In this document: piece by piece, positions 40,486 to 42,410 of the stretch
Numbering within the stretch: the stretch's first letter is position 1
Layout of the letters: each line of letters starts with the position of its first letter
Assembly: GCF_003967195.1 (NCBI RefSeq)
Contig: NZ_AP018725.1
Coordinates: forward strand, 1,240,001 to 1,304,000
Direction: 5' to 3'
DNA length: 64,000 nt
DNA from: Sulfuriflexus mobilis
GTDB taxonomy: Bacteria > Pseudomonadota > Gammaproteobacteria > AKS1
Position numbers and translations under genes: made by a program
The notes under the pieces: model-generated
What the model saw: only the letters and a program-made list of their open reading frames with translations
Told to the model about the DNA's origin: nothing
The model's database searches: none

Positions 40486-40735
40486 GGTTACCTAATCCTA
40501 TGCATGCCAAGCAGTTAAGTTTGTTATTCTGGCGTGACGCCCGTGTTCGAGGCAAGCCTGAAATTATCGTCAATATACTTGTCCACAATGCCACTGTCGA
40601 TACTTGACCGTTAAAAATGCCGCATAGGATAAATCTCAAATATTGGCATTGTAGCGAAGATATTATCCGTAGTTTTATCGTCTCCCGCCCCATGTTCCTA
40701 TCCTCACTGGCCTCCAAAACAAAACGGGTGGCACC

Positions 40736-40790
40736 CAGAGAGTGTGCCCCGTTCTGTTTGATTGGTGGAGGTGGAGGAGCGACGCGTAGG
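40736..40790 (-). repeat. Degenerate tmRNA-3'-end-like sequence with terminator, copy 2
   Basis: A hairpin able to act as a terminator on the minus strand (about 40723-40755) is followed by TTGGTGGAGG (40762-40771), the reverse complement of a CCTCCACCA end like that of ssrA. The next bases, GGAGCG-AC-GCGTAGGT, match the copy at 41122 rather than functional tmRNA. It lies 361 bp from copy 1. Confidence 0.5.
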
Positions 40791-40920
40791 TTGCACTGAC
40801 CCGGTACGGGTAGTGTGCTCATGATGAATCCTGCAAGCGTTCTTTGAGACAGCCTAATTACCAGAGATTGCATAGCTGGATCAGGGTATCCCTAATGATG
40901 CCCGAAGGGCTTCTAGGGAG

Positions 40921-41001
40921 AAACTCCGAGGGAGGTTCTAGGTGCATGGCGGGCGCCGCTTAGCGGCATTAGCACTTCCAGTGCGTCATCTGCCCATAGA
41001 A
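40921..41001 (+). repeat. 81-bp direct repeat, copy A
   Basis: This is identical base for base to 41163-41243. It contains the hairpins at 40924-40934, 40955-40967 and 40972-40984. Confidence 0.9.
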
Positions 41002-41087
41002 TCCCTTCGGGGTTCATTATGGATGCCCTACACCTTCGGTGTCAGAGCAACCCGCTGCGCGGTTTCATGTCTCTGTCACCCATCCAA

Positions 41088-41150
41088 ATAAAAAAGACAC
41101 CCACAAGGGGTGCCTTTTCTATTTGGTGGAGGTGCTGGAGCGTAGCGTAG
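41088..41150 (-). repeat. Degenerate tmRNA-3'-end-like sequence with terminator, copy 1
   Basis: On the minus strand a CCTCCACCAAAT end (complement of 41122-41132) is followed by a hairpin-plus-T-run terminator (about 41090-41118). This repeats the arrangement at the real ssrA 3' end (41495). The sequence inside is GGAGCG-TA-GCGTAGGT, shared with copy 2 but not with ssrA. It lies 371 bp from the ssrA 3' end. Confidence 0.5.
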
Positions 41151-41162
41151 GTACACCTAATG

Positions 41163-41243
41163 AAACTCCGAGGGAGGTTCTAGGTGCATGGCGGGCGCCG
41201 CTTAGCGGCATTAGCACTTCCAGTGCGTCATCTGCCCATAGAA
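41163..41243 (+). repeat. 81-bp direct repeat, copy B
   Basis: This is an exact copy of 40921-41001, displaced by 242 bp. Sequence diverges immediately after the AGAA end of both copies. Confidence 0.9.
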
Positions 41244-41457
41244 CCCCTTCGGGTTACACCATAGAACCCTATGGGTTCATTATGGATACCCTAACCACTT
41301 ACAGTGGTTCAGGGCAATCATGGGTACCTCAACCATCTCCTGATGGGTCAGGGCGCGCAAAGAATCCCTTCGGGCTTCATTATGCATACCCTACCCATCT
41401 CCCGATGGGTCAGGGCAACCCGGAACGCGGGTCCTCATCCATACCGTCGCCAGAAAC

Positions 41458-41488
41458 AAAAAAGGGCCACCTATTCAGGTGACCCTTT
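41458..41488 (-). terminator. Terminator of ssrA
   Basis: A 12-bp stem with one mismatch (41461-41472/41477-41488) and loop ATTC is followed on the minus strand by a run of six T. It starts 7 nt after the CCA end of tmRNA. Confidence 0.9.
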
Positions 41489-41494
41489 GTTGTT

Positions 41495-41857
41495 TGGTGG
41501 AGGCGGCGGGAATCGAACCCGCGTCCGTCAATCCTCTGCCTTCGGCTCTACATGCTTATCCGCATCTATTAAATTTAACTGTCAGCAACCCGATGGGCAG
41601 GGTGCACTGATAGCGATTCCGTTAGGTTTTAACGCATCCACTCCGGACAGGTTTCAGCGCGATCTTATGTGAGTCGACCCCGGTTAACTGAGCGCATAAG
41701 CACGCATCAGGCCGAGGGCTTTACGCTGGTGTTTAAGCAGCTAAAGCGTAGTTGTCGTCGTTGGCAACTATATGGTTTGCAGCTGGATTTACGAGGTGAT
41801 CTGCGCCTCGGCATGCACCTTGGGTTTTGCAATCGGCGTCGAAGCCAGGTCGCCCCC
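41495..41857 (-). ncRNA. ssrA: Transfer-messenger RNA (tmRNA)
   Basis: This 363-nt one-piece tmRNA rescues stalled ribosomes together with SmpB. The 5' end GGGGGCG (from 41857) pairs with the 3' CGCCUCC, followed by A-CCA (41495-41498). The T-arm GGUUCGAUUCC is visible near the 3' end. The reading frame at 41765-41733 encodes the degradation tag ANDDNYALAA followed by UAA, a gammaproteobacterial type. smpB lies 80 bp upstream on the same strand, and a terminator follows. Confidence 0.96.
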
Positions 41858-41936: not shown

Positions 41937-42410
41937 TCAGTGCTTCAGTATGCGTGATTTTTCACGCTCCCAGTCCCGGCCTTTCTCGGCGGCACGCTTA
42001 TCGTGCAGTTGTTTACCCTTGGCGAGGGCGATTTCAAGCTTGGCGCGGCCGCGCACCCAGTACATGGCCGTTGGCACAATGGAGTAGCCCTTGCGGTCTA
42101 CGGCGCTGATCAGCTTGTCCAGTTCATTATGGTGCAGGAGTAGCTTGCGCAGCCGGGTCGCGTCTGGGCTGATGTGTGTCGAGGCCGTCTGCAGCGGTGA
42201 GATGTGGCAGCCGATCAGGTAGGCCTCACCGTTCTGGATGATGATATAGCTGTCTTTGAGCTGCACGTGGCCGGCGCGCAGAGACTTGACCTCCCAGCCC
42301 TCGAGCACCAGTCCTGCCTCAAAACGGTCCTCCAGGCTGTAATCGTGGCGGGATTTCTTGTTCAGCGCGATGGTATTGCTGACGACTTTTTTCTTTTTTG
42401 GCTTGGCCAT
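41937..42410 (-). CDS. smpB: SsrA-binding protein
   Basis: This 157-aa RNA-binding protein escorts tmRNA to stalled ribosomes. It has [36 protein letters not shown] at the N-terminus. The OB-fold follows ([22 protein letters not shown]), with [25 protein letters not shown] as the basic tail that enters the ribosomal mRNA channel. The ATG is at 42410. It is adjacent to ssrA, the usual arrangement. Confidence 0.97.

Follow-up and report, generated by a model that had tools for sequence, protein, structure and literature searches.

The dense array of short hairpins beside ssrA, located in the 64,000-nucleotide stretch of Sulfuriflexus mobilis DNA analyzed here (the window), can with somewhat more confidence than doubt be regarded as part of a dispersed, REP-like family of non-autonomous mobile palindromes, which is probably moved in trans by an enzyme acting on hairpins of single-stranded DNA (ssDNA). 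The stems of this family covary, its members are placed between genes, and they occur nested in each other and at species-specific sites. Decades after REP-like palindromes were first recognized, the movement of most of them is still unsettled. The combination of covariation within a single genome, readable nests, filled and empty sites and a one-contig carrier genome without a RAYT hit makes the present family a good test bed for hairpin recognition, and its fixed bases, namely the AT and C bulges, the RTA linker and the CAW tail, provide a ready prediction of the recognition signal.

When the array was used as a Blastn query, 25 places were hit in its own chromosome, a single contig of 3.11 Mb, and three genomes of the same genus contributed further ones. 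Side-by-side reading of these loci resulted in a unit of approximately 55-63 nt that consists of two different tandem hairpins, each of approximately 25-30 nt. Hairpin A, NCATAGAA(stem)TTCATTATGN, pairs over about 12 bp and leaves AT unpaired in its 3' arm. The linker RTA connects it to hairpin B, CCYYA(stem)TCRRGG, which pairs over about 11 bp, has a C bulging from its 3' arm and precedes the terminal CAA or CAT of the unit. A previous sequence-only reading had described approximately 14 perfect stem-loops at 40883-41435. The hairpins are indeed present, but the array begins at approximately 40791 instead of 40883, several of the hairpins are imperfect palindromes because each carries the conserved 3' bulge, and they are not independent of each other but represent the A and B halves of the two-hairpin unit. 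The conserved linker recognized in that reading (family TCATTATGSATRCCCT) was recovered at 41014, 41277 and 41377 by sequence reading and by a repeat finder, and the three stems it named as differing yet paired (ACACC/GGTGT, AACCACT/AGTGGTT and ACCCATC/GATGGGT) could be verified in the sequence.

The first 20 sequences, in which 95.3% of the pair cells were standard and 68 cells were changed on both sides, had been picked by hand and hence served only for building the covariance model R1. Searched with R1, the own genome gave 111 matches at E<=1, approximately 90 of them at E<0.001, and the three congeners gave 22, 30 and 18 matches; a minority of other families also carry copies. At E<=1e-4, carriers made up 20 of 369 sampled Gammaproteobacteria in a patchy distribution. 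In a phylum-level draw (n=398) only the own genome matched, the genomes listed there all belonging to the same class, which leaves other classes poorly tested. A DNA pattern scan revealed carriers including Thiohalobacter thiocyanaticus, Thiohalophilus thiocyanatoxydans, Thiogranum and Sulfuriflexus as well as records of Lysobacteraceae, Acidiferrobacteraceae and Ectothiorhodospiraceae. The carriers are some of the sulfur oxidizers and their relatives. Carriage by viruses was also considered and rejected, since viral contigs contained no exact match to the unit pattern.

The array is situated downstream of the 3' end of ssrA (Table 1), and an ORF at 41937-42410 beyond ssrA is probably smpB, judging from its position and sequence. 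ORFs were also called through the array itself; they overlie the hairpin repeats and are regarded as mechanical. The folding energy of the array lies far below that of dinucleotide shuffles, with z = -9.8 for the plus and -7.5 for the minus strand. R1 recognizes three full units and one further B hairpin on the plus strand, together with units on the minus strand. Part of the hairpin density is explained by the 111-bp direct duplication and by a longer repeat of 70% identity with a spacing of approximately 363 bp. Taken as a whole, the array is explained by nested self-insertion, which gives the form A'[A B]B', in combination with inverted copies and a tandem duplication that included the ssrA 3' end. 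The evidence for the terminator-like fragment within the array comes from the inverted repeats I5 and I6 and from the direct repeats D6, D9, D11 and D17. The ssrA 3' end (TTTGGTGGAGG...) with a terminator-like hairpin occurs three times between window positions 40717 and 41503 at a spacing of approximately 365 bp, and these three copies resemble remnants of repeated insertion or of tandem accretion at ssrA.

Table 1. Features of the hairpin array and of ssrA (window coordinates).
Feature	Position	Strand	Evidence and remarks
Inverted double-hairpin unit, outside the interval of the sequence-only reading	40791..40847	-	R1 46.6 bits
Degenerate inverted unit	40868..40918	-	R1 32.6 bits
111-bp direct duplication, copy 1	40920..41030	.	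93% identity to 41162-41271
Double-hairpin unit 1, A then B	40994..41050	+	R1 58.9 bits
Terminator-like hairpin with ssrA-3'-end-like fragment	41084..41152	.	Duplicated from 41454-41503; third copy near 40717-40791
Partial inverted unit, convincing for hairpin A only	41110..41185	-	R1 26.4 bits
111-bp direct duplication, copy 2	41162..41271	.	93% identity to 40920-41030
5' half of interrupted outer unit (A' hairpin arm pair and ACA junction)	41235..41258	+	CCCATAGAACCCCTTCGGGTTACA, then complete unit
Double-hairpin unit 2, nested in the outer unit	41259..41317	+	R1 78.2 bits; nested arrangement
3' half of interrupted outer unit (end of outer A stem and B' hairpin)	41318..41356	+	TCATGGGTACCTCAACCATCTCCTGATGGGTCAGGG; R1 16.9 bits
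Double-hairpin unit 3	41357..41418	+	R1 79.3 bits
ssrA (tmRNA)	41495..41857	-	ARAGORN; Rfam RF00023, 229.7 bits

The sequence-only reading had argued that paired changes on both arms imply either selection for structure or an expansion that copies palindromes, and had proposed a covariance-model search. This search supports the claim: the roughly 90 own-genome copies have covarying stems, many further copies exist in other genera, and double changes occur at 21 of the 23 pairs. The own-genome alignment comprises 98 distinct rows, which were collected by the model and are hence biased toward it; 92.5% of its pair cells are standard, and 365 cells are changed on both sides vs 28 on a single side. 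Shuffled controls gave 105 +/- 8 double-changed cells and slid structures only 17-34, while the covariation was 0.391 compared to 0.133 in shuffled and 0.018-0.075 in slid controls. The records from other genera, with 168 double changes, led to the same outcome. It must be mentioned that the copies are related, which makes the counts of double changes inflated and not a number of independent events; however, the slid controls retain this relatedness and both sets agree. While the stems vary, the bulges (AT and C) and the linkers stay constant. Covariation alone is not new, since complementary stem variation has been reported for REP families (PMC3733652).

The vast excess of double over single-sided changes looks as if both arms change together, as expected if template switching or quasi-palindrome correction copied one arm onto the other and thereby kept the pairing without any selection. 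Such a mutational artefact is very unlikely as the main explanation, because arm copying would erase the AT and C bulges and the mismatched columns, which persist in nearly all copies. Moreover, it does not predict the strand-biased non-Watson-Crick pairs described below and leaves dispersal and nesting unexplained. Nevertheless, arm copying may contribute to the turnover of the stems.

Regarding their placement, 78 of 81 units in the own genome lie outside ORFs as called with a home-made ORF caller. Among the unit-bearing intervals, 22 are co-directional, 20 convergent, 2 divergent and 9 undetermined, and several units adjoin tRNA genes. In 7 of 84 and 9 of 89 flanks, no gap separates the 3' end of the unit from the A-tract of an adjoining bidirectional terminator, where approximately 0.02 would be expected from shuffled flanks. 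In two loci (L024, L026), nested unit arrays lie within elements with GGGGTCAGAGCAC-type ends, which resemble the TIR repeats of TIRYT transposases.

That units follow genes and frequently occupy convergent intervals or neighbour terminators is also what one would find if the units were 3'-UTR hairpins, i.e. mRNA stabilizers, terminators or protein-binding sites whose stems are selected as RNA, and both the strong covariation and the better folding of one strand would agree with this explanation. However, relative to co-directional genes the units are oriented 17 to 14, i.e. without bias, so that no fixed strand is transcribed. Furthermore, G-U pairs are few on the modelled strand (23 vs 1587 Watson-Crick pairs and 9 vs 1313 in the two alignments), corresponding to approximately 1% of the pairs compared to approximately 4% on the other strand. 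No Rfam family reaches threshold for the repeats, and nests as well as filled and empty sites (see below) indicate mobility rather than conserved regulation. A structured RNA is hence considered unlikely, although somewhat less so than the copying of arms.

The mismatches point to the complement of the modelled strand as well. Counted on the modelled strand, A.C is more frequent than G.U (65 to 23 and 33 to 9) and T.C more frequent than G.A (32 to 8 and 55 to 2), which on the complementary strand correspond to G.T wobbles and G.A pairs; four columns account for much of this bias, which decreases when they are left out (26 to 16 and 8 to 7; 10 to 4 and 7 to 1). With DNA parameters, 62 vs 15 and 61 vs 7 units fold more stably as the complementary strand, a difference to which the loop sequence may contribute. 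Cruciforms or arm copying should be indifferent to the strand, whereas an RNA should be sensitive to it but is at odds with the gene orientation, so that folded ssDNA represents the best fit. We infer that the recognized form is probably single-stranded DNA with the sequence of the complementary strand. The orientation bias with respect to the replichore (lagging strand) is weak, and no claim is based on it.

A scan for an A hairpin directly adjoined by a complete unit identified nests at >=8 loci of the own genome and in one further genome (G048), some of them two or three units deep; the window holds one nest (41235-41356). The inner unit is always found at one place within the A hairpin of the outer unit, between the inner and the outer part of its stem, where the junction changes from GGTT-CA-TTATG to GGTT-ACA[unit ... 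CAA]TTATG. The TACA flank of the nested type occurs in 13 of 84 own-genome units. Apart from a possible 2-bp CA at the nested junctions, no regular target-site duplication was found.

Comparison with the relatives provides filled and empty sites. Downstream of ssrA, the congeners G001 and G002 have an ordinary terminator and no array, and in G003, where the contig begins at the end of ssrA, no units are nearby. Where the own genome has a gap with two units, the corresponding gap in G001 is short and contains no unit; conversely, one terminator is accompanied by units in G001 and G002 but not in the own genome. At another terminator, units are present at the same place in the own genome, G001 and G003 with several compensated differences, the nested unit occurring in the own genome only; such same-place units may result from independent insertion into one hot spot. 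The comparison of genomes supports the mobility of the units.

The units could also be passive and move only inside larger elements, such as CGTC palindromes or TIR mini-elements, or through tandem duplication at RNA genes. Many sequence-identical units do lie inside a larger inverted-repeat element in the Lysobacteraceae MAG27, where they point to a recent burst, and units are found inside CGTC-type palindromes in Thiohalobacter, PABG and G083. Furthermore, the tandem periods at tRNA-Pro and ssrA both include the 3' end of the RNA gene. At the tRNA-Pro locus (L030, G000:C1:2378491-2379222), seven tandem copies, six of them identical, follow each other with a period of 112 bp that consists of the last bases of the tRNA gene and one double-hairpin unit. 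Despite these cases, hitch-hiking is very improbable as a general explanation, because most units in the genus of the window lie outside such hosts and the nested and terminator-junction insertions have unit-sized boundaries. The MAG27 element (L104-L169) has the ends GAATGGCACTGACTTAA...TTAAGTCAGTGCCATTC, which are often followed by a CTAG-like target.

The sequence-only reading could not assign the array by eye to REP, BIME or CRISPR sequences. No Rfam family reaches threshold, so that a known Rfam RNA was rejected, and neither known REP tag is present. A CRISPR was rejected, since a regular spacer array is missing and the distances between hairpins reflect nested and tandem units. Integron attC sites were considered because they too conserve structure over sequence, and were rejected from a comparison by eye with attC cores described in the literature. 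Unlike classical MITEs, which have terminal inverted repeats and a target-site duplication, the units end in the feet of two different hairpins and not in an inverted pair.

In a broad definition, REPs are mostly extragenic, palindromic, multicopy sequences with a common motif, transcribed, and 14-40 nt long in E. coli (PMC12306157). The present units are extragenic, palindromic and multicopy in this sense; regarding length, each single hairpin would fall into the E. coli range while the whole unit is longer. They resemble GTAG REPs, REPINs and BIMEs with their RAYT/TnpA-REP (PMC3733652, PMC8266576, PMC6006769) in being short, multicopy, extragenic and located downstream of genes, in forming dimers or clusters and in the complementary variation of stems; one group of GTAG REPs also has an essential bulge, and GTAG REPs are processed as a folded single strand. 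Unlike them, the unit consists of two different tandem hairpins, is self-nesting and has a complementary-strand foot GWTG instead of GTAG. Neither GTAG nor GTRG or GYAG marks the hairpin foot, the B foot on the complementary strand being mainly GATG, GTTG or ATTG; among the searched bases, 16 of 173 units contained a GTAG, which is read as lying inside the B stem. The CGTC REPs (PMC3733652) are likewise palindromic extragenic repeats without a known transposase, and the units sit inside such palindromes in several genera, but CGTC is found at the foot of none of the 173 units, and stem and tail differ. Hence, the units are REP-like but outside both tagged superfamilies, since they share most of the broad features and lack the GTAG and CGTC tags as well as an association with RAYTs. 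Among systems beyond bacteria, the double-hairpin elements of fungal and algal mitochondria also have two tandem hairpins, compensatory stem changes and apparent mobility. The likeness is one of form between sequences that differ and belong to an organelle and a bacterium, respectively, and implies no homology. A two-hairpin unit was not found in the REP literature searched, whose coverage was incomplete; within this scope, neither such a unit nor its nesting in itself at a constant position nor its junctions with terminators have apparently been described.

Of the Y1 transposases in the own genome, one is intact, has inverted ends of the AGGGGTCAGG type and matches the TIRYT description in PMC3733652, and the other is a fragment. 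TIRYT elements are characterized by GGGGWSAS inverted repeats (PMC3733652), and some units stand beside GGGGTCAGAGCAC ends, but the unit itself lacks ends of this kind, and the TIRYT locus contains no unit. No RAYT gene flanked by the repeats was detected: none of the 12 Y1 loci examined contained a unit, and Y1 hits were absent from G083, a one-contig genome with 15 unit copies, and from the incomplete G093. A RAYT-carried REP was rejected on these grounds. We infer that an HUH/Y1 enzyme or another hairpin-specific enzyme probably moves the units in trans. For the E. coli TnpA-REP, a bulge is required and the substrate is one strand in folded form (PMC8266576); this serves as an analogy and not as proof of a Y1-driven movement of two-hairpin units. 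Similarly, the conserved bulges and strand-biased mismatches would fit the strand-specific hairpin recognition of IS200/IS605-type elements.

A constant unpaired signature of bulges, linker and tail in combination with freely pairing stems is what the enzymatic recognition of a folded strand would require. In the proposed mechanism, the enzyme would recognize the folded strand through bulges, linker and tail, leaving the stem sequence free as long as it is paired. Units would then insert downstream of genes, beside the A-tract of bidirectional terminators and into other palindromic repeats, and insertion into the bulge position of the A hairpin of another unit would generate the nests A'[A B]B'. 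At ssrA, tandem duplication of a block that contains the 3' end of the gene would subsequently have multiplied several direct, nested and inverted units. It is a more tentative, rather doubtful step to assume that the units, with their two hairpins, GWTG foot, self-nesting and targeting of terminators, constitute a third class of palindromic mobile elements in bacteria, mobilized by a non-RAYT enzyme specific for ssDNA hairpins.

Some further observations concern the family more generally. A second, related subfamily (CCCTAGAATC...CAGGGATTTCCTG...TTCTGGTYAT), in which a T.T mismatch replaces the bulged C, is also self-nested (L199:1814-1957, L207:512-573, L219:569-630, L222:337-479). Upstream of several own-genome units (L021, L027, L031), a longer conserved module (CTCCGATGTCCGTGGGGYTT...TTCACCAC) is present. 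In one two-contig genome, a single strong unit (75 bits) was found at G244:C1:1321507-1321567, perhaps a recent acquisition.
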